The notes beneath the pieces were generated by a model, which did no database searches, had not been told where the DNA came from, and saw nothing but the letters and a program-made list of their open reading frames with translations. Source: Bacteroidales bacterium (GTDB lineage: Bacteria > Bacteroidota > Bacteroidia > Bacteroidales > JAQUTK01). From it: DNA of 32,199 nt. Made by a program: the position numbers and the translations under genes. Below are positions 3,162 through 32,199 of this stretch, in pieces. The stretch spans positions 1-32,199 of the forward strand of contig JAQUTK010000009.1 of NCBI GenBank assembly GCA_028709785.1, given 5' to 3'. Numbering within the stretch: the first letter of the stretch is position 1; the number at the start of each line of letters is the position of its first letter.

Positions 3162-4082
3162 TTATTCCCCCTCCAGTTTATTTCTGTTGACTGTAGTCAG
3201 CGCCTCCGGGTTGACATACTTATTCAGACTGCACGCTGGTATAGTTTTCAATCCTTCGATAGCGGCGATGCAGTCTAAGATCGCACCATTATATAAGGTG
3301 TGTACAGCATCGGCGAAATAGGGGGCGGTTGCTTCCTTCCCCATTGCTTCATACTTGCGGGCAATGATGTCGTTCATGTCGAAATAAAAGACCCCTTCCT
3401 GTTCGGCAACTTGTTTGGTCCACAGTCCATAGGTGCTGTCGCAACGGTTCATCCGGTCGCCTGTCCATCTGTTGCCCGGGGTGTGGGAGAGGGCTATGAC
3501 GATTGCGCCTTTTGCTTTTGCTTCACGGATATACTGACGCATGTAATGACCGAAAGTATAAACAGTCTCTTCTTTACCAGTAGCTTCCATGACTACCGTC
3601 TGCGACTCTTCACCAATCCCCTTCAGAGAAGCGCGGGCACGACCTGTGTTCAGCGGTCCGCCATCGTTGTGCCCAAACTGTAGCATCAGATAATCGCCTT
3701 TTCTAATACCGGAGAGCACATTTGCCCACAAGCCCTGCGTAATAAAAGTGCGACTGCTTCGTCCTCCAAGGGCATGGTTTTCCACAGAGATCTGATTGTC
3801 GAAGAAGAACTTTCCGAAGAAGGTACCCCATCCCCACATCTTGCCTTCACCCGTACCAGTACCATTTTTCATGGTTGAGTCACCAATGAGAAACAGTACC
3901 GGAGCAGATTCACTTTTGCGCGTTTTGCCGGCTTTAAACTGATCCGGTCGTTTGGTTGGATCGGCGATTGCATGATTGGCAGCATTGCCGCCGGGACCTT
4001 CTTTGTCATCTTTTACCTGTGCATGAAGAGGGATAATCCCCATAAGCAGCAATACGATGATTGCACTGAAAATTCTTTTCAT
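3162..4082 (-). CDS. Rhamnogalacturonan acetylesterase, CE12-like SGNH hydrolase
   Basis: A 306-residue protein with a signal peptide (1-21, ending LHAQ) that removes acetyl groups from rhamnogalacturonan I or related pectin. The SGNH blocks are all present: block I GDST with nucleophile Ser69, block II GGRSSRTF (Gly107), block III GHND with Asn139, and block V DAVH with Asp258 and His261. The length suits CE12. It begins 12 bases after the stop of the PL11-type lyase on the same strand and is surely co-transcribed, so lyase and esterase would act on the same polymer. Substrate is inferred from family and neighbour. Confidence 0.88.
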   Translation of the reverse strand: MKRIFSAIIVLLLMGIIPLHAQVKDDKEGPGGNAANHAIADPTKRPDQFKAGKTRKSESAPVLFLIGDSTMKNGTGTGEGKMWGWGTFFGKFFFDNQISVENHALGGRSSRTFITQGLWANVLSGIRKGDYLMLQFGHNDGGPLNTGRARASLKGIGEESQTVVMEATGKEETVYTFGHYMRQYIREAKAKGAIVIALSHTPGNRWTGDRMNRCDSTYGLWTKQVAEQEGVFYFDMNDIIARKYEAMGKEATAPYFADAVHTLYNGAILDCIAAIEGLKTIPACSLNKYVNPEALTTVNRNKLEGE

Positions 4083-4094
4083 GATCTTCTGTTT

Positions 4095-5942
4095 TTATTT
4101 GTTTTTGATTTTAGTTCCTCTGAACGATCCTTTTAGATCTGCTCCAAAATAGAATCCGACCTGAGTTGGCTGGTTATAGGCAACATTCTGATTGGCGATG
4201 CTGATCCGGTACACGGGATCTTCCAGAAATGTATGAAAACGATATGGAGTGGCAATGGTTGTCACATACACTCTCAGTTCGCTGTTGTCCCTTGTACGCC
4301 AAATCACTTCTTCCCGCCAGTCGCCGATGATGTCGCACGCCAGACAAGGATTGGATTTGCTGCCGTTGTTGGAAGAGCACTCTTCTGCTTTCAGAACAGG
4401 AAGACAAGTGCCGGTGGTCCAATCATATTTGGAAATAGTGGTTTGGTCGAGCATTTCGCGAAGCAGATCACCGTCCCACCAGACGGCCATATTGGTAGGA
4501 AGACGGTTGGGTCTGGCATTCAATACCTCGCCTTTATACGTACGGATTCCTCCAGATGCGGAAGACCACATCTCTAACCCCTTATTGGTCGGATCGATGT
4601 CTGCCGCCATGGCACGCCCCACATCGATCGGACTTTTTATCTGAAAGAGTACCTTTCCGGTTTTTGCATCTGTCAACGCCGAACCGTCGCCGCTGTCTTC
4701 GTAACTTTTCCATAGCTGGAGTTTCTTGCCCGGAACAAATGCAGTCAAATGCATGGCGTCACCATGTCCCATGCCGGTGGTGTAAAGTCCCTTGCCGGTG
4801 TTGTCTATTGCGCAAGAACCGTAAATTATTTCATCGCATCCATCTCCATCCACATCGCCGACAGAGAGATTGTGGTTGCCTTGTCCGGCATATTTCTCGT
4901 TCCCTTCTTTGTTGGAGTCAAAGACCCACCGCGGTGAAAGTTTGCCGTCGCGCCAGTCCCAGGCCGCAAGTACGCTACGTGTATAATAGCCACGGCACAT
5001 GACGACACTTGGCTGCTTCCCGTCCAGATAGGCGACACACGATAGAAAACGGTCAGAGCGGTTGGCAACCGGATCACCCCAGGATTCCACCTCACCCCGA
5101 TGCGGAATATAGTCCGTTGACTGCATTGCCTCGCCCGTCAGACCGTTAAATACAGTCAGGTATTCCTTTCCGGTGAGTATCCGACCCGTCTCCTCTCTGT
5201 TGTCCACAGTGGCATCGCCGATCACATTTCCTTTGCCATCTATCGTGCCATCAGCGGTACGCATCACCACTTCCGCACGGTTGTCGCCATCAAGATCAAA
5301 AACGACAAACTGTTCGTAATGCGCTCCGGCACGGATATTATGTCCGATATTGATACGCCATAACTTTTCACCTGTCAGACGGTAGCAGTCATACAGCGTT
5401 GCTCCTGTATAACCGTTATGCGAGTTATCACGAGCATTGGTCGGTTCCCATTTCAGGATAATCTCGTAGCGACCATCTCCATCCACATCTCCCATACTGG
5501 CATCATTGGCTGAATAACTGTAAGGCTCACCCCGCAGAGTAGTACCACCTTCGGGAATATCCAGCGGGATAGACAGGTATCCTGACGGAGCAAGAGCCGG
5601 TAGCGTCCATTGAGACGATTCATCTGTAACTTCAACGCCATTCATCACAGGTGTAACGGTATAGGTAAGCGATTGAGTAGAAGCGACAGCATCTTTAAAG
5701 AAGGTTGATTCTTTCAGAGGTGCGCTGTTGAGTAAGGTTCCGTTGCGATAAAGATTGAAAGCACTTTTTTTCGAATCAGAAGATAGATAACGCCAGGATA
5801 CGCACACCGTGTCTGCATCTTGTCGCACAGCAACCACTCCGCGATCCGTTTTTTCTCTTTTTAATTTGGAAAAGTTATAATGAGGCTGTGCATACGTACC
5901 TATGGCCACTATGAGACAACTTAATACAAAAATCCTGTTCAT
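4095..5942 (-). CDS. Rhamnogalacturonan lyase, PL11-like
   Basis: A 615-residue exported enzyme (signal peptide about 1-18, ending TYAQ) predicted to cleave the rhamnogalacturonan-I backbone by beta-elimination. An N-terminal fibronectin-like region (about 30-115) precedes a beta-propeller with calcium-binding-like repeats: GDVDGDGRYEI, FDLDGDNRAEV and GDVDGDGCDEI. Other family-like stretches are TGMGHGDAMHLTAF and CDIIGDWREEVIWR. The size is normal for the YesW/YesX group. It is the first gene of a two-gene (-) unit with the CE12-like esterase. No SusC/SusD pair, sensor or transporter accompanies it here, unlike a full polysaccharide utilisation locus. A TATCTTTG element on the - strand (5969-5976) is a good -7 box about 27 bases upstream of the start. 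Confidence 0.9.
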   Translation of the reverse strand: MNRIFVLSCLIVAIGTYAQPHYNFSKLKREKTDRGVVAVRQDADTVCVSWRYLSSDSKKSAFNLYRNGTLLNSAPLKESTFFKDAVASTQSLTYTVTPVMNGVEVTDESSQWTLPALAPSGYLSIPLDIPEGGTTLRGEPYSYSANDASMGDVDGDGRYEIILKWEPTNARDNSHNGYTGATLYDCYRLTGEKLWRINIGHNIRAGAHYEQFVVFDLDGDNRAEVVMRTADGTIDGKGNVIGDATVDNREETGRILTGKEYLTVFNGLTGEAMQSTDYIPHRGEVESWGDPVANRSDRFLSCVAYLDGKQPSVVMCRGYYTRSVLAAWDWRDGKLSPRWVFDSNKEGNEKYAGQGNHNLSVGDVDGDGCDEIIYGSCAIDNTGKGLYTTGMGHGDAMHLTAFVPGKKLQLWKSYEDSGDGSALTDAKTGKVLFQIKSPIDVGRAMAADIDPTNKGLEMWSSASGGIRTYKGEVLNARPNRLPTNMAVWWDGDLLREMLDQTTISKYDWTTGTCLPVLKAEECSSNNGSKSNPCLACDIIGDWREEVIWRTRDNSELRVYVTTIATPYRFHTFLEDPVYRISIANQNVAYNQPTQVGFYFGADLKGSFRGTKIKNK

Positions 5943-5968
5943 GTTCTAATATTTAATCAGTTAGACAG

Positions 5969-5976
5969 CAAAGATA
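5969..5976 (-). promoter_or_regulatory. Bacteroidales -7 promoter element for the PL11-CE12 unit
   Basis: CAAAGATA on the + strand reads TATCTTTG on the - strand, an exact TAnnTTTG match. The expected start of transcription is about 20 bases before the lyase ATG at 5942. The upstream -33 TTTG is not perfect (TTTC at roughly the right distance). Confidence 0.5.
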
Positions 5977-6070
5977 GAAGAAACTAATCAGTATGAAAAT
6001 GGAAACAGCGGGAAAGTTACATCTTTTAGAAATTTCCACAACGAAAAAGAGCTGCCGAAAGAAAAAAGTG

Positions 6071-6078
6071 TAACTTTG
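6071..6078 (+). promoter_or_regulatory. Bacteroidales -7 promoter element for serC
   Basis: TAACTTTG matches TAnnTTTG exactly, 47 bases upstream of the serC ATG at 6126. No clear -33 TTTG is present at 19-21 bases. It lies divergent to the PL11 promoter, with about 95 bases between the two boxes. Confidence 0.5.
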
Positions 6079-6125
6079 TGGTCTGATTGATTTCAAGAGT
6101 ATTTATCAACATATTTTTTTTACAA

Positions 6126-7193
6126 ATGAAGAAACATAATTTTAACGCGGGGCCTTCTATCTTGCCTCAGATTGCGATCGAGAACACAGCAAAAGCTGTC
6201 ATTGATTTTAATGGTTCAGGTTTGTCCATCATGGAAATCAGTCACCGATCGAAGGATTTCGAGCCGGTTATCAACGAAGCCGTTGAGTTGTTTAAGGAAT
6301 TATTGGAGATACCGGCAGGTTACTCCGTACTTTTCTTAGGTGGAGGCGCGAGTCTGCAGTTCTGTATGGTTCCCTTTAACTTCCTTGAAAAGAAAGCTGC
6401 ATATTTAAATACAGGAACATGGGCGAGTAAAGCGTTGAAAGAAGCTAAATTGTTTGGCGAAGCTGTTGAAGTCGCTTCATCTAAACCTGCAAACTTTAAT
6501 TACATTCCGAAAGATTATTCAATCCCGACTGATGCTGATTATTTTCATGTAACAACGAACAATACCATTTTCGGTACGGAACTTCACACAGACATCGATT
6601 CTCCTGTTCCTTTGATTGCCGATATGTCATCAGATATTTTCTCTCGCCCTGTTGATGTTTCTAAATATGCGATGATTTATGGTGGTGCTCAAAAGAACCT
6701 GGCTCCTGCGGGCGTTACTTTTGTGATTGTCAAAGATGAATTGCTGGGCAAAGTATCGCGTGCAATCCCTACTATGTTGGATTACCGTACGCATATCAAA
6801 GATGGTTCTATGTTTAACACTCCTCCTGTATTGCCTATTTTCACCGCTCTCGAGACATTGCGTTGGTTGAAATCACTCGGTGGACTGAAAGAAATGCAGA
6901 AGAGAAATCAGGCGAAAGCAGACTTGCTCTACGGTGAGATTGACCGCAACAAATTGTTCAAGGGAACTGCGGCTGTGGAAGATCGCTCACTCATGAATAT
7001 CTGTTTTGTGATGAACGAACAATATCAAGAACTGGAATCTGAATTCCAGGCATTTGCTTCTTCCAAAGGTATGGTAGGTCTGAAAGGACACCGTTCAGTA
7101 GGTGGATTCCGTGCCTCTTGCTACAATGCTCTTCCGATCGAAAGCGTTCAAGCTTTGGTTGATTGCATGAAAGAATTCGAACAGAAATATTAA
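6126..7193 (+). CDS. serC: Phosphoserine aminotransferase
   Basis: A 355-residue PLP enzyme that converts 3-phosphohydroxypyruvate and glutamate to O-phosphoserine; it also serves pyridoxal phosphate synthesis in many bacteria. The class-V aminotransferase pattern is clear: N-terminal [21 protein letters not shown] (72-79), and the PLP lysine Lys190 in YGGAQKN. I chose ATG 6126 because the protein family starts at [10 protein letters not shown]; the open frame extends to a TTG at 6087, but those residues ([13 protein letters not shown]) are not family-like. SerA follows after 22 bases on the same strand. Confidence 0.96.
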
Positions 7194-16892: not shown

Positions 16893-18329
16893 ATGGAACG
16901 ATTAACTAGACGTTTATTTGAGACTCCGGTATATCCGGAACGTATTTTACAGATCGGAGAAGGTAATTTTCTTCGCGCTTTTGTCTGCTGGATGGTGCAG
17001 GAGATGAATGAGAAAGCGAATTTTAATAGCAGTATAGTTGTGACTCAACCCCTTTCACAGGGAATGGTGCCTCAGTTGAATGAACAAGACGGATTGTATA
17101 CCCTCGTACTGAAAGGTCTAGATAAGGGAAAACCGGTTCGTATCGTGAAACGAATTGAATCTATCTCCAGAGGCATCAATCCATTTGAACTGAATGATGA
17201 GTTTATGCAATTGGCAGGTAGTAAAGAGTTACGTTTTGTCGTTTCTAATACAACAGAGGCCGGTATTGCTTTTGATCCTGAAGCAAAAGAGACGGAGTGT
17301 CCGCCTCAAAACTTCCCGGCACGGATGACCAAGTTCTTGTACCATCGTTTTGAAGCATTTAACGGAGCGGCAGACAAAGGACTGATTTTTATCCCTTGCG
17401 AATTGATCGAACAGAATGGTGATCATCTGAAAGAGCATATGTTGCATTATGCGCAACTATGGCAGTATCCCTCTGCTTTTGTAGAGTGGATGAACAGTGC
17501 TTGTGCATTTGCCAATACCCTGGTTGATCGTATCGTACCGGGTTATCCGAGAGACACTATCGCAGAGATTACGAAAGAGGTGCAGTATGAAGATAAAATG
17601 GTGGTCGAAGGTGAAATATTCCATTTGTGGGTGATTGAGGCACCGGCTTGGGTAGAGCAGGAGCTTCCTACTTCCAAAGCAGGTCTCAATGTGCTGTTCG
17701 TTCCTTCTATCAAACCTTACCGTGATCGCAAGGTTACTTTACTGAACGGACCTCATACCGTGTTATCGCCGGTGGCTTATCTGTCCGGACTCAATACGGT
17801 GCGTGAAGCTTGTGAAGATGCGGTAGTGGGTAAGTATGTACGTAAGGCAATGTACGACGAACTGATTCCAACGCTTGATCTCTCCAAAGAGGAATTGACA
17901 GCTTTTGCTGATAGTGTTATGGAACGTTTTCGTAACCCGTATGTCAATCATTTGGTAACAAGCATCATGCTTAACTCATTTCCAAAGTTTAAGACACGTG
18001 ATCTTCCTGCTCTCAAGAAATATCTGGACCGAAAAGGTCAGCTGCCTGATGCATTGGTATTTGGTTTGGCAGCAATCATTTCCTATTACAAAGGAGGAAA
18101 GCGGGGAGAAGATATCATTACGTTGAATGATGATCAGAAGATTCTGGATTTGCTTGCTCAGTTGTGGCAGACCAATGATCCTTCTGCAATAGCCGAAGGT
18201 GTGCTTGGTGCTTCCTTTATATGGGCGGAAGACTTGAATAAGATCGCCGGACTGAAAGAGAAACTGAGCGGGTATCTGACTCTTATCACTCAAAAAGGAA
18301 TGAGTGGTGCATTGCAAACGATTGTCTAA
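16893..18329 (+). CDS. uxaB: Tagaturonate reductase (altronate oxidoreductase)
   Basis: A 478-residue NAD-dependent enzyme of the polyol-specific long-chain dehydrogenase family. It reduces D-tagaturonate to D-altronate, the second step of galacturonate breakdown after UxaC. Family features are the N-terminal QIGEGNFLRAFVCWM, SNTTEAGIAF and the catalytic KVTLLNGPHTVLSP with the spaced Lys, Asn and His. Length is normal. UxaA, the next enzyme, starts 12 bases downstream, giving a strong pathway pairing. A uxaC gene and a transporter are not seen in the window. Confidence 0.95.
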   Translation: MERLTRRLFETPVYPERILQIGEGNFLRAFVCWMVQEMNEKANFNSSIVVTQPLSQGMVPQLNEQDGLYTLVLKGLDKGKPVRIVKRIESISRGINPFELNDEFMQLAGSKELRFVVSNTTEAGIAFDPEAKETECPPQNFPARMTKFLYHRFEAFNGAADKGLIFIPCELIEQNGDHLKEHMLHYAQLWQYPSAFVEWMNSACAFANTLVDRIVPGYPRDTIAEITKEVQYEDKMVVEGEIFHLWVIEAPAWVEQELPTSKAGLNVLFVPSIKPYRDRKVTLLNGPHTVLSPVAYLSGLNTVREACEDAVVGKYVRKAMYDELIPTLDLSKEELTAFADSVMERFRNPYVNHLVTSIMLNSFPKFKTRDLPALKKYLDRKGQLPDALVFGLAAIISYYKGGKRGEDIITLNDDQKILDLLAQLWQTNDPSAIAEGVLGASFIWAEDLNKIAGLKEKLSGYLTLITQKGMSGALQTIV

Positions 18330-18341
18330 ATAATAGATTCA

Positions 18342-19835
18342 ATGAATAAAGCTTTATATATACTGATTCATCCCTCCGACAATGTTGCTGTTGTGCTGGA
18401 AAGAGTCGGCAAGGGAGAGGTGTTGACTTTGGGTACTCAAAAAGTGACCATACGTGAAGAGATTCCTGCCGGCCATAAGGTTGCTATAGCGAGGATTGCT
18501 TCCGGAAACAATGTGATTAAATATGGCTATCCTATCGGACATGCCGTTGTTGATATTGAAGCCGGTGACTGGGTGAACGAGAAACGTATAAAAACCAATC
18601 TTAGCGGAGTGGAGAACTATACCTATTCTCCGTCACTTTCTGCACCTAATATACCGCAGCGCAATCTGACATTTAATGGCTACCGTCGTAAAAACGGTCT
18701 GGCAGGTACCCGCAACGAGATATGGATTGTGCCGACTGTAGGTTGCGTTAATGGTATTGCATCCCAGTTGGCAGAAACCCTGCGCAATGAGACTGGTCTG
18801 AAAGGTGTAGATGCAATTGTTGCTTTCCCACATAGTTATGGCTGTTCGCAGTTGGGAGAAGATCATGAGAATACCCGAAAGATCCTCCGCGATATGGTCT
18901 TGCATCCGAATGCGGGAGGAGTGTTGGTCGTTGGTCTGGGATGTGAAAACAATCAGCTGAGTGCATTTAAAACCTTTTTGGGCGAGTATGAACCGGAACG
19001 GGTACGTTTTATGGAGTGCCAGAAGGTGGGTGATGAATATGAAGAAGGAATGAAACTTCTTCGTGAATTATACGAACAGGCTGTGACCTGCCAGCGCGAA
19101 CCTATTCCGTTGTCCGAACTGAAAGTCGGACTTAAATGTGGTGGCTCTGACGGATTCTCAGGTATCACTGCCAATCCCCTTTTAGGTGTCTTTTCTGATT
19201 TTCTGACCTCACAAGGCGGAACTACCGTATTGACAGAAGTACCGGAAATGTTTGGTGCCGAAACGATCTTGATGAACCGATGTGTGACTCCCGTTCTTTT
19301 TGATCAGACAGTTCGCCTGATCAATGGTTTTAAGGAGTACTATGAGGCCAACAATCAGCCGGTCTATGAAAACCCATCTCCCGGCAATAAAGCCGGAGGA
19401 ATATCCACGTTGGAAGAAAAATCGTTGGGATGTACACAAAAAAGCGGGCAGTCTCCGGTGTGTGGAGTGGTAGCGTATGGTGATCTGATTCGGGAGAAAG
19501 GTCTGAATTTGTTGAGCGCACCCGGCAATGATTTGGTTGCTGCAACGGCGTTGGCTTCTTCAGGCTGTCAGTTAATTCTGTTTACGACAGGAAGAGGAAC
19601 ACCTTTCGGATGTTATGTACCTACTATCAAAATTTCAACGAACTCTGCCTTGTATCAAAGCAAACCCGGATGGATTGATTTTAACGCCGGAATATTGCTT
19701 GAAGGAAAGACGATGGAAGAGACGAATGAACTCTTCATTGACTATATCATTCGCGTAGCTTCAGGAGAAAAGGTACGCATGGAAAAGAATGGTTATCATG
19801 AGTTTGCTATTTTCAAGAGCGGTGTAACCCTTTAA
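18342..19835 (+). CDS. uxaA: Altronate dehydratase
   Basis: A 497-residue UxaA-family lyase that dehydrates D-altronate to 2-keto-3-deoxygluconate. The small N-terminal SAF domain (about 1-95, with IHPSDNVAVVL and GHKVAIARIASG) is followed by the large catalytic region, with NGYRRKNGLAGTRNEIWIVP, LKCGGSDGFSGITANP and the late FTTGRGTPFG. Conserved cysteines in PTVGCVNG, HSYGCSQLG and GLGCENN probably bind the metal. It is the third gene of the esterase-uxaB-uxaA unit and is followed after 21 bases by an antiporter on the same strand. Confidence 0.95.
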   Translation: MNKALYILIHPSDNVAVVLERVGKGEVLTLGTQKVTIREEIPAGHKVAIARIASGNNVIKYGYPIGHAVVDIEAGDWVNEKRIKTNLSGVENYTYSPSLSAPNIPQRNLTFNGYRRKNGLAGTRNEIWIVPTVGCVNGIASQLAETLRNETGLKGVDAIVAFPHSYGCSQLGEDHENTRKILRDMVLHPNAGGVLVVGLGCENNQLSAFKTFLGEYEPERVRFMECQKVGDEYEEGMKLLRELYEQAVTCQREPIPLSELKVGLKCGGSDGFSGITANPLLGVFSDFLTSQGGTTVLTEVPEMFGAETILMNRCVTPVLFDQTVRLINGFKEYYEANNQPVYENPSPGNKAGGISTLEEKSLGCTQKSGQSPVCGVVAYGDLIREKGLNLLSAPGNDLVAATALASSGCQLILFTTGRGTPFGCYVPTIKISTNSALYQSKPGWIDFNAGILLEGKTMEETNELFIDYIIRVASGEKVRMEKNGYHEFAIFKSGVTL

Positions 19836-25395: not shown

Positions 25396-26466
25396 TCAGA
25401 CATTTACAAACCACTTTTTCTTAAACCAGAACGCGACATTTACTAAGCCGATCATAATCGGAACTTCAGCCAATGGTCCGATGACAGCTGCAAACGCTTC
25501 TCCTGAGTTGATACCGAAGATCGCGATGGCCACAGCAATGGCTAATTCAAAGTTATTGCTGGCAGCTGTAAATGAGAGAGTTGTGCATTGCTCGTAACTG
25601 GCACCCGCTTTCTTGCTTATGTAAAATGAAGCTACAAACATGATCAGAAAGTAAACAAGCAATGGAATCGCTATTAAAACCACGGCTGAGGGAATAGATA
25701 CGATGTATTCACCCTTAAGTGAGAACATGACAATGATTGTAAAAAGTAAGGCTATCAAAGTCAGCGGAGATATTTTGGGAACAAATATATCGTGATACCA
25801 TTCTTTGCTTTTCATCCGAATCAAAATGAATCGCGTCAGAAAACCTCCGATAAAAGGAATTCCGAGATAGATAAAAACGCTTTCAGCAATTTGTCCGATG
25901 GTAATTGCTTCAACTGCATCATTGGTTGGAATGCCAAACCATCCGGGAGCAATGGATATGAAGAAATACGCATATACCGAATAGAAAAGCACCTGAAAGA
26001 TGCTGTTGAAAGCGACAAGTCCGGCAGCATATTGAGTATCTCCTTTTGCCAGATCGTTCCATACAATCACCATAGCAATACAGCGAGCCAGTCCAATCAT
26101 GATAATACCATACACATACGGCAGATTGGAATTGTTATCACCGGGAAAAAACTTGAACAACAGTACAGCAAGAAAAAACATTAATACAGGACCAATAATC
26201 CAGTTTTGAACAAGTGACAATCCAAGAACTTTCCAGTTTTTGAACACATCACCCAGTTCTTCAAATCTCACTTTTGCAAATGGAGGATACATCATAACAA
26301 TTAATCCAATAGCAAGAGGAATATTGGTAGTCCCCGATGACATACTATCCCAGAAATGGGCAACTGAAGGAAACATCCATCCTGAAAATACGCCGATAAA
26401 CATCGCGAGGAATATCCAGAGAGTCAGATAACGGTCGAGGAAGCTTAATCTTTTCTTTGAGCTCAT
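25396..26466 (-). CDS. acr3: Arsenite efflux permease, Acr3 family
   Basis: A 356-residue, about ten-helix inner-membrane carrier that expels arsenite. The Acr3 signatures are present: [51 protein letters not shown] with the conserved Cys129, and [13 protein letters not shown] with the conserved Glu (about 334). The position of Cys129 corresponds to the cysteine shown to be needed in characterised Acr3 proteins. It is the last arsenic gene of the minus-strand cluster, 50 bases after the ProC-like gene; a small palindrome (AAGTAC-TCA-GTACTT) occupies 26498-26512 of the gap. No ArsR is visible in the window; it may lie past the right edge. Confidence 0.94.
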
Positions 26467-26516: not shown

Positions 26517-27290
26517 TTATGGTTTGATTTTGTTGAAGATAGCCGTCAGATATTCATCGTAATACCCTTTAATTGTCTCTTCAACAGTTCCCAGTGGTTT
26601 TACAGGAACTAAATCAGTCACTTCTTCGTATGTCAATCCGGACTTAAAAAGAGTTTCTGTTGTTCCCCAGAGCATATCCGTAATGGTTGATTGAGCTTCC
26701 TGTTCATTCATGCCATAACTGATTGCCAGTTCCTTGAGCTTTTGCAATTGGAAAAAGAAGTACGTGTGTCCCATCGCACTGATCACGGCATACGCCTCAA
26801 TCTTTGCTTCATCCACTTCCGGTGTAGAACCAAGCGTTTTCATCAGTTCCAGAATCACGTTTCTGGAAGTGTCTTTCATCGAAGGAGAGAAAGTAATCGG
26901 ATTGATACCTTTGTTTACAATCGTTGAAGCGCTGGGATTCATCCGTGCCAGATTGTCAAAGCCACCCAAGGCAAGAGACATTTTCTCAATCGTATGCTTT
27001 GGCGCCAACGAAATCAGTATTGTATTTTCAGGAAGGGCCTCTTTGATCTTTGTCAGCGTATCCATCAAGACAGGAGGATGGACAGCAATAAAAACAACAT
27101 GACTCTCAGATACAACTTTCAGATTGTCTGTCGTAATCGTAATCTTTGGATGTTTTTGTTTTAAAGCATTCAACACATCCTGATTGATGTCAGATACAGA
27201 TACATTCTCTAATGAGATTCCACTGTTCTCAAATGCATGGAGGAATATGTTTGTAATTCTTCCTCCGCCAATAAAACCAATTGTTTTCAT
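26517..27290 (-). CDS. ProC-superfamily NAD(P)-binding dehydrogenase of unknown role
   Basis: A 257-residue protein beginning KTIGFIGGGRITN, a Rossmann dinucleotide-binding turn as in pyrroline-5-carboxylate reductases, followed by VVFIAVHPPVLMDTL, LARMNPSAS and a helical C-terminal half. The ProC signature near the C-terminus (a GGTT-type segment) is absent; instead the sequence reads VPVKPLGTVEETIKGYYD. It is therefore unlikely to make proline and may use another imine, keto or cofactor substrate. I chose ATG 27290; an open frame continues upstream to 27377, but it overlaps the ArsP-like gene. It sits between the ArsP-like permease (28 bases) and acr3 (50 bases), so it is part of the arsenic unit; its part in it is unknown. 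Confidence 0.75.
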   Translation of the reverse strand: MKTIGFIGGGRITNIFLHAFENSGISLENVSVSDINQDVLNALKQKHPKITITTDNLKVVSESHVVFIAVHPPVLMDTLTKIKEALPENTILISLAPKHTIEKMSLALGGFDNLARMNPSASTIVNKGINPITFSPSMKDTSRNVILELMKTLGSTPEVDEAKIEAYAVISAMGHTYFFFQLQKLKELAISYGMNEQEAQSTITDMLWGTTETLFKSGLTYEEVTDLVPVKPLGTVEETIKGYYDEYLTAIFNKIKP

Positions 27291-27318
27291 CTTCTTAAAA
27301 TTTAGTGTTTTCGTAAAT

Positions 27319-28287
27319 CTATAAAAGGAAATTGAACAGATATCCGGAGATAATAATGAATAGGGTAATAGTACCAAAGAAAAGACCGATAAGTTTCCAT
27401 GTCATCACCTTCTTTAGCAAGGTAGCTTCCGGAAGTGAAAGTCCCACTACACCGATCATAAAAGCCAACGCGGTGCCGATAGGAACGCCTTTTGCCACAA
27501 ACACTTCGATGACAGGCACAATACCTGCCGCATTTGCATACATCGGAACGGCAAGCAGAACGGAAAGAGGGACGGCATACCAGTTGTCTTTCGACATATA
27601 ATGTTCAAAGAATCCTTCCGGCACATATCCATGCATTGCCGCACCAATAGCAATACCAATGATGACATACAGCAACACACCCCTCACAATCCCCCAAGCT
27701 TCTCTTACGATGGAAGGAAACCGCTTCCGGAAAGGTGTCTTCTCCTCTTCCCACTCCGCAGACTCCACATTGGCATTTATCTGAATTTGTTTGACCCAAT
27801 CACTCAGATAGGGTTCCAGTTTCATCTTTCCCAATAAATAGCCACCAATAATTCCAAGCGAGATTCCGGTGACTACATATACCATCGTTATCTTCACGCC
27901 AAATGTACCCAAAAACATAGCTACAGCCACTTCATTGACCAAAGGGGAGGTAATAAGATACGAGAAAGTGACACCCAGTGGAATTCCTCCCTTTACAAAG
28001 CCGATGAACAGCGGAATAGAGGAACAGGAACAAAACGGTGTAATTGCTCCAAACAGAGAGGCAAAGAAATATTGAAACCCATACATTTTATGTGTTGTCA
28101 GATAATTACGTAATCTCTCAATAGGAAAATATGCATTGACAATCCCCATCAGTACACTGATGAAAAACAGCAAGATAAGGATCTTGGTTGTATCGTAAAA
28201 GAAAAAATTCACAGCCATTCCAAGATGACTTGTTGCATCCAGTCCGAAGACACCATATACCAGCCAGTCGGCAAAACCTTGTATCAT
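27319..28287 (-). CDS. ArsP-like permease (PF03773)
   Basis: A 322-residue inner-membrane permease. The signature ITPFCSCSSIPLFIGFVKGG carries Cys86 and Cys88, followed by FSYLITSPLVNEVAVAMF; this is the ArsP pattern. About eight to ten hydrophobic segments surround a hydrophilic loop at about 160-190. In Campylobacter ArsP expels trivalent organoarsenicals such as methylarsenite and reduced roxarsone; other PF03773 members move other metals, so substrate is inference. It lies between arsC (70-base gap with a hairpin) and the ProC-like gene. The presence of both Acr3 and this permease suggests handling of both inorganic and organic arsenic. Confidence 0.82.
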   Translation of the reverse strand: MIQGFADWLVYGVFGLDATSHLGMAVNFFFYDTTKILILLFFISVLMGIVNAYFPIERLRNYLTTHKMYGFQYFFASLFGAITPFCSCSSIPLFIGFVKGGIPLGVTFSYLITSPLVNEVAVAMFLGTFGVKITMVYVVTGISLGIIGGYLLGKMKLEPYLSDWVKQIQINANVESAEWEEEKTPFRKRFPSIVREAWGIVRGVLLYVIIGIAIGAAMHGYVPEGFFEHYMSKDNWYAVPLSVLLAVPMYANAAGIVPVIEVFVAKGVPIGTALAFMIGVVGLSLPEATLLKKVMTWKLIGLFFGTITLFIIISGYLFNFLL

Positions 28288-28357: not shown

Positions 28358-28774
28358 TTATAAATATTCTTCAACAAACTCTTTGGAATACTGCTTTACC
28401 ATCTCCCGAACACGTCGAAACTCGGCTGTAATTTCTTCTTCCGATCCTTGAGCTTTGGCAGGATCCGGAAAGTTCTGATGCAACCTGACTGCTTTGGTAG
28501 GGAAGAAGGGACAACGTTCCCGGGCATTGTCGCAGACAGTTATCACATAATTAAAAGCGATAGTCCGGTATTCATCTATATGATTGGACGTATGAGTGGA
28601 GATGTCGATCCCATCTTCTTTCATTGTAGCAATGGCACGTGGATTTACACCATGTACTTCTATTCCGGCACTATAAACATCCGCTTTCTCTCCGGCAAAA
28701 TGGCGCAGATATCCCTCTGCTATCTGGCTTCTGCAACTGTTCCCTGTACAGAGAACCAAAATATTCTTCTTCAT
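28358..28774 (-). CDS. arsC: Arsenate reductase, thioredoxin-coupled low-molecular-weight phosphatase type
   Basis: A 138-residue cytoplasmic enzyme reducing arsenate to arsenite. The phosphatase-like P-loop CTGNSCRS holds Cys9, Cys14 and Arg15; the second pair of the relay is Cys81 and Cys88 in VCDNARERCP, and the general-acid Asp104 lies in FPDPAKA. These correspond, shifted by one, to Cys10, Cys82 and Cys89 of the Staphylococcus plasmid pI258 ArsC. Length is as expected. It follows the HgcB-like gene after 53 bases on the same strand, and its product, arsenite, is the substrate of Acr3 downstream. Confidence 0.95.
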   Translation of the reverse strand: MKKNILVLCTGNSCRSQIAEGYLRHFAGEKADVYSAGIEVHGVNPRAIATMKEDGIDISTHTSNHIDEYRTIAFNYVITVCDNARERCPFFPTKAVRLHQNFPDPAKAQGSEEEITAEFRRVREMVKQYSKEFVEEYL

Positions 28775-28827: not shown

Positions 28828-29130
28828 TCAACAACAATTCTTTTGACTTTCTCCTCCGCAATCACAGGAAGGCTCCGTTCCTCTTAGAAAGCCATTGATG
28901 ATAGCTACAGCACAACCGGTACCCGTCTTTACAGTGATTGCTCCAGTCCGGCAATTGTTTGAACAAGCGCCACATTCCATACAATCATCAAGGTCTGTAA
29001 TCCGGGCTTTGCCCTGTTTGATTTCGAATACTGCATGGGGACAAGCCTTGGTACACATGCCACATCCTGTACATAAATCAGGATCAAGCTTTAATGTGGC
29101 CACCTGTTTTAAATAGTGCATTGTTTTCAT
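28828..29130 (-). CDS. hgcB: HgcB-like ferredoxin
   Basis: A 100-residue 2[4Fe-4S] protein. Two complete CX2CX2CX3C motifs are present: Cys20/23/26/30 (CTGCGMCTKACP) and Cys50/53/56/60 (CMECGACSNNC). Beyond these it has the extra cysteines expected of HgcB but not of ordinary ferredoxins: Cys73 in TGTGCAVAI and a terminal Cys99-Cys100, plus Cys89 and Cys91. HgcB supplies electrons to, and passes mercury towards, HgcA in mercury methylators. The gene starts one base after the stop of the HgcA-like gene. A second Met (codon 4) is also a possible start. The symbol is given for family resemblance; whether the substrate is mercury is not known. Confidence 0.8.
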   Translation of the reverse strand: MKTMHYLKQVATLKLDPDLCTGCGMCTKACPHAVFEIKQGKARITDLDDCMECGACSNNCRTGAITVKTGTGCAVAIINGFLRGTEPSCDCGGESQKNCC

Positions 29131-29131
29131 A

Positions 29132-30157
29132 TCAGGCTAATTTAGATAGGATGAATAGGATGGTTCCCACAACGATGAATGCGATCTGAAATGGAACAGC
29201 CCATTTCATCTCTTTTCTGACGCCCGACAAAGAAGTGTAGGTAGATGATCCGGTAAAATTCATCGCCATAAATGAAGCAATGCTAATACCTATTAATCCC
29301 ATGCTTACTCCATCCAGAATGGGAACTTTAAATAGCCGGTTGATCACCAGTGTTATTGAGAGTCCCCAAAAGGCACCTTTCAAGGCAAATGCACGAAAGG
29401 GTATCCAAGGCAAAAACAGCGGAGTGATGACTATACCTGCGATATATCCGCCCAATATTGTTATCAAAGGAAACAGATGCGAATCCATCATTTTACCAAA
29501 CAGAAAGCCGGTGCGATCCAGACCGGAAAGAAAAAAGAACAAGCCAATCAGAATCAGTAATTTGTATTTCTCATAGAGAAAATCAACCGGAATCAATTTG
29601 GCCCTCTCTTTCATTGGAAAAGTAACTTTTCTCATAGCCGGTGTTGCTTTGTATCCCGCTTCTATATAGGGCTTTATATCTCTTGCTTCCACCGGACCGA
29701 ACAGAGCATTGAATCCCGTTTGCTCTTTTACTTTGTGAGCTGCGACTCCACTTGCCGAAAGTTGTGGCAAAATGATTCTGCGATGTTGCACCCTGTGTTC
29801 CAGAGAAGTCTCTTTAAGGCTTTTCACCACACTGTCAGTGCTAAAATTTCCTTTTGCGGCAGAGCACCATACATTGACACCTTTAGTATCCACAACCAGA
29901 ATCCAGACATTCAGGGAATCCAGATTACTTCTCAATACGTCAAAGCTCAATTTATAATTTGCAGAAACAAGCACATCCGATTGACTGTCCGGATTGCCAA
30001 CTTTATACAGACCCGGTTTCACTCTGTAATTATTTCTTCCAACTCCTATTCGCATTTTTAATGCACCGATCCGATCAGCCCAAGTTAATCTGGACGAAAC
30101 AGAAGTCACGTTGAGTGAAAGCGGTTTTAAAGCTTGAGAATTGAAGTTTGTTGTCAT
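29132..30157 (-). CDS. hgcA: HgcA-like membrane corrinoid protein
   Basis: A 341-residue protein. The N-terminal half (about 25-190) resembles the corrinoid-binding domain of HgcA: YRVKPGLYKVGNP (44-56), VLVSANYKLSFDVLR (62-76), the cap-helix motif GVNVWCSAAK with Cys98, and HRRIILPQLSASGVAAHKVK (125-144). The canonical motif is N(V/I)WCA(A/G)GK; here A and G are replaced by S and A, while Cys98, the expected lower cobalt ligand, and Lys102 are kept. The C-terminal half has about five membrane helices (starting near 198) and the stretch MNFTGSSTYTSLSGV (299-313). Length matches HgcA. It pairs with an HgcB-like gene one base downstream, between a putative outer-membrane barrel and arsC. It could be a true mercury-methylation protein or a paralogue with another acceptor such as arsenic. 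Confidence 0.8.
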   Translation of the reverse strand: MTTNFNSQALKPLSLNVTSVSSRLTWADRIGALKMRIGVGRNNYRVKPGLYKVGNPDSQSDVLVSANYKLSFDVLRSNLDSLNVWILVVDTKGVNVWCSAAKGNFSTDSVVKSLKETSLEHRVQHRRIILPQLSASGVAAHKVKEQTGFNALFGPVEARDIKPYIEAGYKATPAMRKVTFPMKERAKLIPVDFLYEKYKLLILIGLFFFLSGLDRTGFLFGKMMDSHLFPLITILGGYIAGIVITPLFLPWIPFRAFALKGAFWGLSITLVINRLFKVPILDGVSMGLIGISIASFMAMNFTGSSTYTSLSGVRKEMKWAVPFQIAFIVVGTILFILSKLA

Positions 30158-30232: not shown

Positions 30233-31294
30233 TTAAATTTTATATTCGAAGTTTAAGGAGAGAGAGTTACTATTGTTGCTGCTTTTCTCCCCAATCCATT
30301 TTTTATAGGAGAGAGCCACCGAAACGCCTTTTACAGGAGAGTAATGAATACCACTAAGGAATGCCTGACCATTTGAATTAACATTCCACTTGTTTCTATC
30401 GTTCCCTTTATTGGAAGAAAGATGATCATAACGGCCATACAGTTCCCATCTTGTTGCTAGTTCTATTGCTCCGAAAACAGAGGTTCCATATAAATCCTGA
30501 TTCTTTATCATATTATGATTAAAATGATAATTATACTCTACTCCAATCCGATACTTTGAACTTTCTTTATAACCAATAAAAAGAGAAACTAACTGTTGCG
30601 GACTCTTTCCGATTGCTCTGTCTGATTCAAGATGATCGTAATAGATACGTCCAACAACTCCTTGCAAGGGCTTTATATCTGTGCCAACGGCATATTTTAC
30701 GTTACTGCCCGTATCCTGATTATTCCGGAATCCTTCTCCATTAGTCAATGCTACATCCATACTCAACCAATTATACGGTGAATAGAAAGCGATAGCCCCC
30801 AAATCGCCACTCGGCGTTTTAAAATACAGATCTTGAAAGGTTTCTTGAATATACCTGAACCCCCAAAACTTTTCTTGAGTGATATAGTGGTTTTGAAGTA
30901 TTCCACCTGCTTGAATCATCAGATTGTCGGATGGTCTGTACTCAAGATACGAAAACTTCAGTCCGGTGCTATAATAACTCCCCTGAGTATAATCATAATT
31001 TGTATTCATAGCTGTACCGAGAGAATCAGCAACTTGCAAATTTCCAAATACTGACGGTCTCCCAATATCCAGAACCACAACTCCGTGCCATTTGGAAGAA
31101 AAGCTATGTTTGTACCCTATATGAGCTCGGTTTATATACATACCGTAATTTGTTTTAGCTTTCGACTGTTCAAAGATTGTACGATTAATCACCTGAATAA
31201 TCACCTGATCAGCTCCTTCTTGCTGTAATATATCATTTGCATGCATGAATAGAGTCAAAATGCAGAAAGATAGAAAGAATAGAATTCTTTTCAT
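30233..31294 (-). CDS. Outer-membrane beta-barrel (porin-like) protein
   Basis: A 353-residue protein with a signal peptide (about 1-19, ending FMHAN). The mature part shows alternating amphipathic strands rich in Tyr, Trp and Gly: YGMYINRAHIGYKHSF near the start, LKFSYLEYRPSDNLMIQAGG, RIGVEYNYHFNHN, and a terminal strand LSLNFEYKI, as expected of a barrel of about 14-16 strands. It resembles phosphate-selective or general porins, though I cannot assign a family. It lies between the arsG-like gene (42 bases) and the HgcA-like gene (75 bases), so it is probably expressed with arsenic resistance and could let an arsenic compound or corrinoid-linked substrate cross the outer membrane; this is inference. 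Confidence 0.75.
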   Translation of the reverse strand: MKRILFFLSFCILTLFMHANDILQQEGADQVIIQVINRTIFEQSKAKTNYGMYINRAHIGYKHSFSSKWHGVVVLDIGRPSVFGNLQVADSLGTAMNTNYDYTQGSYYSTGLKFSYLEYRPSDNLMIQAGGILQNHYITQEKFWGFRYIQETFQDLYFKTPSGDLGAIAFYSPYNWLSMDVALTNGEGFRNNQDTGSNVKYAVGTDIKPLQGVVGRIYYDHLESDRAIGKSPQQLVSLFIGYKESSKYRIGVEYNYHFNHNMIKNQDLYGTSVFGAIELATRWELYGRYDHLSSNKGNDRNKWNVNSNGQAFLSGIHYSPVKGVSVALSYKKWIGEKSSNNSNSLSLNFEYKI

Positions 31295-31336: not shown

Positions 31337-32044
31337 TTACAAATAAAAGACAAAGCCATAATAAATACCCACTGCTATAAAAAGGAGTGCAACCACAAGG
31401 TTCAGCCATTTTTGAAACACCTTCATCCGGTTGTAAAAAGTAGCCAGACCTGATATGCTGTATGCCAATATCCAGGCAACAATAATTACCGGTAATCCCG
31501 TGGCTACAGCAAAGATTACAGGCAATAAAGCTCCGCCACTTTCAGCAGCTGCCATAGGAATCAACATCCCAAAATAAAGCAGACCACTGGAGGGACAAAA
31601 AGCCAAAGCAAACAATATACCGAGCAATAATGCTCCAAGGCTCCCTTTGTACCTGCTGGATTCTCCACCAGTAGTAAATCCCAGTTTAGGCAGATTTAAC
31701 TTATCACCGAAGAGCATAAACAAGCCGATAAGAATCAGAGCGGGAGCAATCAGTATCTCACCATAGCTACTAATCGCTTTTTGAATCGCATACACGCTTG
31801 CTCCTTGCCGAATAATTGGGATCAAAATAATACCGATTCCCGCATAGGTAATCACCCGCCCCAGCGTATATAAGATCCCATTCATAAAGATCCGGTGCCT
31901 GCTTTCAATATGCTTGCTGATAAATCCAATCGCCGTCATATTGGTAGCGAGCGGACAGGGGCTCAGAGCGGTGAGCAATCCCAACAAGAAAGCTGTGATG
32001 ATCGGCACGTTGCTGTTGTCCAAAAGTGACTGTAAGAACTCCAT
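31337..32044 (-). CDS. ArsG-like CcdA/DsbD-type membrane protein
   Basis: A 235-residue inner-membrane protein with about six hydrophobic segments. It has the two membrane-embedded cysteines of the CcdA/DsbD family, Cys30 in ALSPCPLATN and Cys150 in ALAFCPSSG, each next to proline, which in that family carry reducing power across the membrane. Members in Bacteroides arsenic operons are annotated as ArsG, a proposed aromatic-arsenical or arsenite efflux component. The neighbouring gene, six bases upstream, has the C-terminus of an ArsF-like protein, which supports the ArsG name over a cytochrome-biogenesis role. Whether it moves electrons or an arsenical cannot be told from sequence. Confidence 0.8.
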   Translation of the reverse strand: MEFLQSLLDNSNVPIITAFLLGLLTALSPCPLATNMTAIGFISKHIESRHRIFMNGILYTLGRVITYAGIGIILIPIIRQGASVYAIQKAISSYGEILIAPALILIGLFMLFGDKLNLPKLGFTTGGESSRYKGSLGALLLGILFALAFCPSSGLLYFGMLIPMAAAESGGALLPVIFAVATGLPVIIVAWILAYSISGLATFYNRMKVFQKWLNLVVALLFIAVGIYYGFVFYL

Positions 32045-32050
32045 AGAGCA

Positions 32051-32199
32051 CTATTTTAAAAGATCCTCAAGTTGCTTTTTTATTCCTGACTTAAAGAGAT
32101 CAGGTGTGTTCTTTGCATATCCAAAGCCAAACTTTGTGAGATTATTCCTGCTCTCTTTGCCATTCTTCCATGTATTGAGAAACAGCGATGAAAAAGTAA
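32051..32199 (-). CDS. ArsF-like protein, C-terminal part only
   Basis: The last 48 codons of a gene that begins beyond the right edge. The frame reads LFLNTWKNGKESRNNLTKFG and then YAKNTPDLFKSGIKKQLEDL before a stop at 32051. This resembles the end of ArsF-family (thioredoxin-like) proteins that precede ArsG in Bacteroides arsenic operons. The arsG-like ATG begins six bases downstream, so they are co-transcribed. It was not in the usual ORF length range because the window cuts it. The remainder and any arsR, arsD or arsA are expected to the right. Confidence 0.6.
   Translation of the reverse strand, partial: TFSSLFLNTWKNGKESRNNLTKFGFGYAKNTPDLFKSGIKKQLEDLLK

Follow-up and report, generated by a model that had tools for sequence, protein, structure and literature searches.

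Gene content of the locus

The window, that is, the whole stretch of 32,199 nucleotides that was analyzed, encodes on its minus strand a corrinoid protein of 341 amino acids (hgcA, 29132-30157), followed after a single base by a ferredoxin of 100 amino acids (hgcB, 28828-29130). The two genes lie within a cluster of 11 genes in the order arsR-arsE-arsF-arsG-porin-like-hgcA-hgcB-arsC-ArsP-family permease-proC-like-acr3, all on the minus strand, headed by arsR, and separated by gaps of −59 to +86 bases. Defined by arsR, arsC, and an arsenite exporter on one strand, this is an ars operon, with arsC scoring just under its equivalog cut-off. This ars context of hgcAB is absent from the initial annotation of the stretch.

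The pair stands just upstream of arsC (28358-28774), which encodes a protein of the thioredoxin-type arsenate reductase family with Cys9, Cys14, Cys81, and Cys88, scoring above the cut-off of PF01451 and, at 158.5 bits, just under that of TIGR02691 (174.3). Between arsC and acr3, we find an ArsP_1-family permease (27319-28287; PF03773, 216 bits, cut-off 32), a possible exporter of a methylated product, whose nearest NCBIfam models, SaoE and SO_0444, are both under cut-off, and a ProC-like NADP-dependent oxidoreductase (26517-27377; PF03807 and PF14748 above cut-off, TIGR00112 below). The arsenite efflux transporter gene acr3 (25396-26466; TIGR00832, 433 bits, cut-off 282.8) ends the cluster. 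A ProC-like gene recurs near ars genes in L011, L012, L018, L024, L031, L138, L145, and L146.

On the other side of the pair, the gene next to hgcA (30233-31294) encodes a putative outer-membrane porin-like protein, named by eye, which gave no Pfam or NCBIfam match and of which L002, a second genome of the genus, has a copy with 91% identity next to its hgcA. It is preceded by arsG (31337-32044), encoding an ArsG-family organoarsenical efflux permease (NF040495, 273.6 bits, cut-off 200), and by the 3' part of arsF (32051-32199), which runs on beyond the window. On L089, where arsF was read further, arsF, arsE, and arsR occupy positions 1052-1528, 1525-1773, and 1860-2240 of the minus strand, with NF040494, TIGR00412, and NF033788 above cut-off, and promoter-like matches there show no excess (6, against a shuffle mean of 7.3). 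No ArsM above the model cut-off was found in the host genome (G000) or its genus mate (G001).

With respect to the host (3.55 Mb in 70 contigs, 99.8% complete), the gut-type Bacteroides of the initial annotation has to be replaced by a member of the Bacteroidales outside Bacteroides: the 60 genomes drawn as relatives include one genus mate and no further family member, and the best named matches of an antiporter encoded in the window are from Coprobacter tertius (67% identity) and a Parabacteroides (66%). A search for a 16S rRNA for taxonomy found none, and nothing in the data examined shows a gut habitat. The presence of MetH in the genome supports the use of corrinoids by the host. In addition, the window holds a pectin-use set (3162-5942 and 16893-19835) with a rhamnogalacturonan lyase (family 11 type), a GDSL esterase, a tagaturonate reductase, and an altronate dehydratase.

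Identity of the HgcA and HgcB proteins

The hgcA product scores 402.3 bits (E = 1.4e-120) against the NCBIfam model NF040863 (HgcA_corrinoid; cut-off 275) and the hgcB product 119.4 bits (E = 4.4e-35) against NF040864 (HgcB_ferredoxin; cut-off 99), which places both proteins above the cut-offs of the curated NCBI models. Two related models score below their cut-offs on HgcA, namely, the HgcAB_like fusion model (202 bits, cut-off 285) and the CFeSP model; a CFeSP identity is set aside at 88 of 306 bits. A deep HgcA paralogue is likewise set aside by the model scores together with the nesting of the window's HgcA in a 15-row HgcA clade (SH-aLRT 100). As the tree was built without CFeSP, a fusion outgroup, or named confirmed methylators, the exclusion of a fusion paralogue and of CFeSP rests on the model scores.

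The structure model of HgcA consists of a CFeSP-like corrinoid domain and a C-terminal membrane domain and superposes on CFeSP and on the published HgcAB model 9a0b; a PDB sequence search returned CFeSP only. Predicted helices at 197-210, 228-247, 257-275, 280-299, and 310-340 make the modeled C-terminal part compatible with about five membrane helices. Cys98, the sole cysteine of the protein, sits in an N-x-W-C context within the modeled cap helix at the corrinoid site (96-102; protein-only model), which is intact.

HgcB carries two 4Fe-4S motifs (Cys20/23/26/30 and Cys50/53/56/60) and, beyond these, Cys73 and the tail cysteines Cys89, 91, 99, and 100. We also considered an arsenic-specific change of HgcB and rejected it, since loci that have ars neighbors and loci that have none show similar numbers of tail cysteines: a count of five was obtained for 49 of 55 loci with such neighbors and for 26 of 34 without, with 5 of the 94 loci giving no count. 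In two Chloroflexota MAGs (L056 and L080), the HgcB open frame is lengthened at its C-terminal end by a cysteine-rich stretch of well over 100 residues.

Judged by their sequences, the two proteins are confirmed as a genuine HgcA-HgcB pair. The gross features first noted for it (both lengths, Cys98, the cysteine sets, the one-base gap, and about five helices) were all recovered, and of the proposal of an HgcAB-like pair in Bacteroides, the HgcAB part is supported by models and fold, and the host part is not. The HgcA and HgcB of Pseudodesulfovibrio mercurii ND132 have the same architecture, with a single cap-helix cysteine and the ferredoxin cysteine set (PMC7305189 and PMC10349881, cited, as are the other articles below, from excerpts); the window's pair differs from them in its cap motif, NVWCSAAK, and in being embedded in an ars cluster. 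Against the HgcA of 9a0b, the window's protein shows 39% identity over 324 residues. With the CFeSP gamma subunit (2ycl and 4c1n) it shares the corrinoid-binding domain (1.4 to 1.5 Å over 125 to 129 residues), but there is no match over the membrane domain, and CFeSP gamma is described as being without the cap cysteine (PMC7305189).

A genus-specific cap motif

As stated in the initial annotation, the cap motif around Cys98 reads NVWCSAAK rather than NVWCAAGK, i.e., Ala99 is replaced by Ser and Gly101 by Ala. Among the 120 closest protein clusters, 112 have NVWCAAGK, 4 NVWCSAGK, 2 NVWCASGK, and 2 NVWCSAAK, the last two being the window's genome and L002. Across 94 deduplicated hgcA loci, the counts are 83 for NVWCAAGK, 7 for NVWCSAGK, 2 for NVWCSAAK, and 1 each for NVWCAASK and NVWCAGGK. 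Among the sequences examined, SAAK is thus confined to the window's genus, and within the 15-row clade the members other than the window and L002 read NVWCAAGK or, in L007, NVWCSAGK. From this placement, NVWCSAAK is a recent change within one genus, nested among ordinary HgcA. The suggestion that the pair could be a paralogue with a new use of the HgcA fold is therefore not borne out as to a separate lineage; the idea of another use survives through the ars context. In the same clade, 14 of 15 rows have arsC or acr3 nearby, and the fifteenth, L002, has arsR-arsE-arsF-arsG upstream, with its sequence ending 178 bases past hgcA.

The two replacements raise the question of a decayed or altered HgcA in which methyl transfer has been changed or lost. 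Such an account can point to Gly101, which is at least 90% conserved over 71 aligned sequences and is Ala here, and to the restriction of SAAK to one genus among the sequences examined. Against it, N95, V96, W97, C98, and K102 are invariant in the 71 sequences, and both genomes of the genus have a full hgcA frame that keeps every alignment-invariant column, Cys98 included, with hgcA of L002 88% identical to that of the window and followed by an hgcB (90% identical over the part present on the contig). Furthermore, Ser99 recurs in other HgcA proteins (7 of 94), and the modeled cap helix is intact. We consider decay highly improbable.

The motif has a practical consequence for surveys. Two of them discard sequences without a strict cap string (PMC10349881 and PMC7438021), McDaniel et al. 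2020 (PMC7438021) requiring G(I/V)NVWCAAGK, and the window's NVWCSAAK does not fit the literature filter for predicted mercury methylators, N(V/I)WCA(A/G)GK, either, so the pair would be missed by both surveys and is not classed here as a predicted methylator by that convention. More generally, a strict filter loses family members, since 11 of the 94 loci are without NVWCAAGK.

hgcAB and arsM interchange between arsC and acr3

For the wider gene context, the best 80 of 249 encoding stretches in named genomes were used and, besides the window's own, 20 of the order's 22 further hgcA genomes were read at length; 94 of 101 loci were kept after 7 duplicates were dropped. The context of arsM was read in 60 of 105 genomes (11 whose family also has hgcA, the 9 highest scoring, and the next 40 by score), and 20 acr3 loci, chosen by score from genomes with neither hgcA nor arsM (G067 left out), served as a control. 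We defined a slot as a pair of arsC and acr3 genes on one strand, at most 6 kb apart, with arsC as the upstream member.

A slot is present in 39 of the 94 hgcA loci, and in 34 of these 39, hgcA lies between arsC and acr3 (32 with hgcB, 1 with hgcB and arsM, and 1 with a truncated hgcA alone). It is likewise present in 41 of 60 arsM loci, with arsM inside in 36 of the 41. The 13 slots among the 20 control loci comprise 10 in which arsC and acr3 are adjacent, 1 with a broken arsM, and 2 with unrelated genes, indicating that, where neither arsM nor hgcAB is present, this position is mostly empty. Under tighter spacing (arsC at most 400 bases upstream and acr3 close downstream), 26 of the 94 hgcA loci and 28 of the 60 arsM loci remain. 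The window itself departs from the slot arrangement, its hgcAB preceding arsC and only the permease and ProC-like genes standing between arsC and acr3, which speaks against a simple exchange with arsM there. The parallel is seen most directly in the 20 + 20 loci read first, where L135 reads arsR-arsE-arsF-arsG-arsP-arsC-hgcA-hgcB-acr3 and L155 reads arsR-arsE-arsF-arsG-arsP-arsC-arsM-acr3.

In two genera, one species has the hgcA cluster and another the arsM cluster: L116 versus L136 and L137 (g136) and L117 versus L138 (g137). The best matches in the set of arsC, arsG, arsF, and arsE from L116 are those of L136 (59 to 81% identity), and its arsR ranks L136 third; its acr3, fragmented as a frame, matches those of L136 and L137 at 87% identity along 127 residues. 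In g137, acr3 of L038 (the L117 locus) groups with L138 and one other row (SH-aLRT 93). This grouping comes from a quick acr3 tree, with SH-aLRT support only, of 87 rows (45 hgcA linked and 42 arsM linked), which leaves out loci without an acr3 frame of more than 250 residues within 4 kb, L116 among them. Over the whole tree, the labels change 21 times, with at least 7 changes forced by starred branches, compared to about 29 changes for shuffled labels, so that hgcA-linked and arsM-linked acr3 genes are also partly clustered.

The simplest account of two systems interchanging in a mostly empty position is that both serve one purpose, arsenic methylation, and reach it through different chemistry. 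We therefore tentatively read HgcAB in the ars cluster as a corrinoid-dependent arsenite-methylating step that does the job of ArsM in related clusters, at a probability a little short of even; the job of ArsM there is taken to be arsenite methylation. ArsM is an S-adenosylmethionine (SAM)-dependent methylase of another family than HgcA. The Bacteroidales ArsM clusters (e.g., arsR-arsC-arsM-acr3) share arsR, arsE, arsF, arsG, arsP, arsC, and acr3 with the hgcAB cluster, as the same neighbors in the same order; they differ in having ArsM, to which the window's HgcA gave no match in the profile search.

Several loci hold altered copies. In L212 (around 5076-7000; G152), a broken arsM lies between arsC and acr3, and another species of that genus has hgcAB beside acr3; the remnant may be a step in the exchange. 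In L118 (G168), the hgcA frame between arsC and acr3 is truncated to 152 amino acids, with no ferredoxin motif in the 11-kb stretch, and in L119 (G008), hgcA is shortened to 271 amino acids and followed by an odd ferredoxin motif. In G802, hgcA is split into two pieces and is not above cut-off, and in G047 the 1.5 kb read after hgcA contain no ferredoxin motif. In two MAGs of the Bacteroidales (L040:444-1862 and L042:7513-8808), hgcAB is immediately preceded by an arsC-arsM fusion that unites arsenate reductase and arsenite methylase in a single frame.

The co-occurrence of both systems bears on the reading that, within the arsenic cluster, HgcAB and ArsM differ in their step or substrate, with HgcAB carrying out, e.g., a second methylation or acting on antimony. 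The arsC-arsM fusions next to hgcAB in L040 and L042, and the presence of both systems in the L024 cluster, would be expected from such a division of labor, and ArsE, ArsF, and ArsG point to the handling of organoarsenicals. Yet arsM was found in the stretch read around hgcA at only 4 of 94 loci, in one of them 7.5 kb away, and we judge this reading improbable.

hgcA and arsM across genomes

In a sample of 393 genomes from the order, HgcA is above cut-off in 23 and ArsM in 105, with no genome having both. The absence of ArsM from all 23 hgcA genomes, versus its presence in 105 of the 370 others, gives a Fisher one-sided P of 6e-4 (family stratified, P = 0.003) and is weaker without the truncated hgcA genomes G008 and G168 (P = 0.001; family stratified, P = 0.033). 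This zero depends on the ArsM cut-off, since in 12 of the 23 a shorter ArsM-like protein scores below it (G000 has none). With respect to the exporter, acr3 (E ≤ 0.001) is found in 20 of the 23 hgcA genomes and in 213 of the 370 others.

In those 12 genomes, such shorter proteins give the highest-scoring ArsM matches under the cut-off. In L197 (2112-2756) and L198 (2577-3221), a 214-amino-acid ArsM-like methyltransferase stands beside a protein resembling a radical SAM enzyme by eye, and the L197 copy scores 196.5 bits against the ArsM model (cut-off 263). A link to the methyltransferase CpaM, considered for the shorter protein of one hgcA genome, was rejected (53 bits versus 180, and below every cut-off listed).

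As a strict rule, the mutual exclusion of hgcA and arsM applied to this first sample but broke down in wider sets. Among 50 named hgcA genomes, which overlap in part with the 23 of the order, 6 have ArsM, and in L024, L040, and L042 both are in one cluster. Family f42 has ArsM in 2 of 7 hgcA genomes and in 8 of 16 others (one-sided P = 0.31), and the other 28 named hgcA genomes show no avoidance (7 of 28). When the extra f42 genomes are added to the order sample, ArsM is found in 2 of 28 versus 112 of 383 (one-sided P = 0.006). A replicate across the phylum was uninformative, with HgcA in 2 of 345 genomes, one of them the window's own. Exclusion of arsM by hgcA is a tendency and not strict.

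These distributions must be weighed against an ordinary mercury-methylating HgcAB without any action on arsenic, whose ars neighbors and regulation would be shared because more than one toxic metal is handled by ArsR-type regulators and thiol-seeking exporters. The activity that has been demonstrated for the family is mercury methylation (PMC7305189), and the window's pair passes both family models. Moreover, at 37 of the 94 HgcA loci, some of which are on short contigs, neither arsC nor acr3 is seen within 6.5 kb, and some genomes carry both hgcAB and arsM. What mercury methylation leaves unexplained is the alternation of hgcAB with arsM in a mostly empty position, with its at least seven forced changes, and the rarer arsM in hgcA genomes of the order. 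We regard it as a serious possibility that nevertheless stays well below even. On the HgcA tree, ars-linked and unlinked proteins are mixed (20 changes, 14 of them forced), so the ars-linked ones form no separate protein family.

Proposed function and implications

The ars context of the window's pair and of many ordinary HgcA genes makes arsenic a likely substrate. If HgcAB methylates arsenite, ArsR would release the operon upon arsenite and ArsC would reduce arsenate. HgcB would feed electrons to the corrinoid of HgcA and would present arsenite on Cys73, Cys89/91, and Cys99/100, and the methyl-cobalt bound by Cys98 would pass its methyl group to the thiol-bound As(III), yielding methylarsenite. 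This product would be exported by the ArsP-family permease or ArsG, with Acr3 exporting unmethylated arsenite. Hg(II), which is thiol bound too, would be a side substrate methylated at the same center, and the pair might thus methylate mercury only on the side. The further-reaching proposal, that the native job of HgcAB as such is corrinoid (vitamin B12-type) arsenite methylation, swapping with ArsM, and that methylmercury is an accidental by-product, we hold to be somewhat unlikely.

The link between ars genes and hgcAB is already in print. Regions of hgcAB flanked by acr3 and arsC were described in PMC7438021, with the same link to acr3, arsC, arsR, and sometimes arsM; the excerpts of that article do not report hgcAB and arsM trading places, and we found no report of the interchange in the open-license literature, preprints excluded. 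In addition, control of hgcAB in P. mercurii by an ArsR that responds to arsenic is cited in PMC10349881, and according to a 2025 study of marine MAGs, nearly all MAGs with hgcA have arsenic resistance genes, arsM included (PMC12953829). Anoxic ArsM is described as producing methylarsenite, whose export is ascribed to ArsP and which inhibits competitors (PMC11653729). HgcAB would fit this scheme, and As(III) could be bound by the five cysteines that HgcB has beyond its clusters.

What makes microbes retain hgcAB is a standing question, and PMC10349881 calls for evidence as to what mercury methylation natively does; the alternation with arsM inside ars operons lets this be tested directly, on a substrate that can be named. 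If arsenite methylation by HgcAB is true, surveys of arsenic methylation based on arsM only would miss a system, and arsenic exposure would be a driver of the gene pair behind methylmercury.
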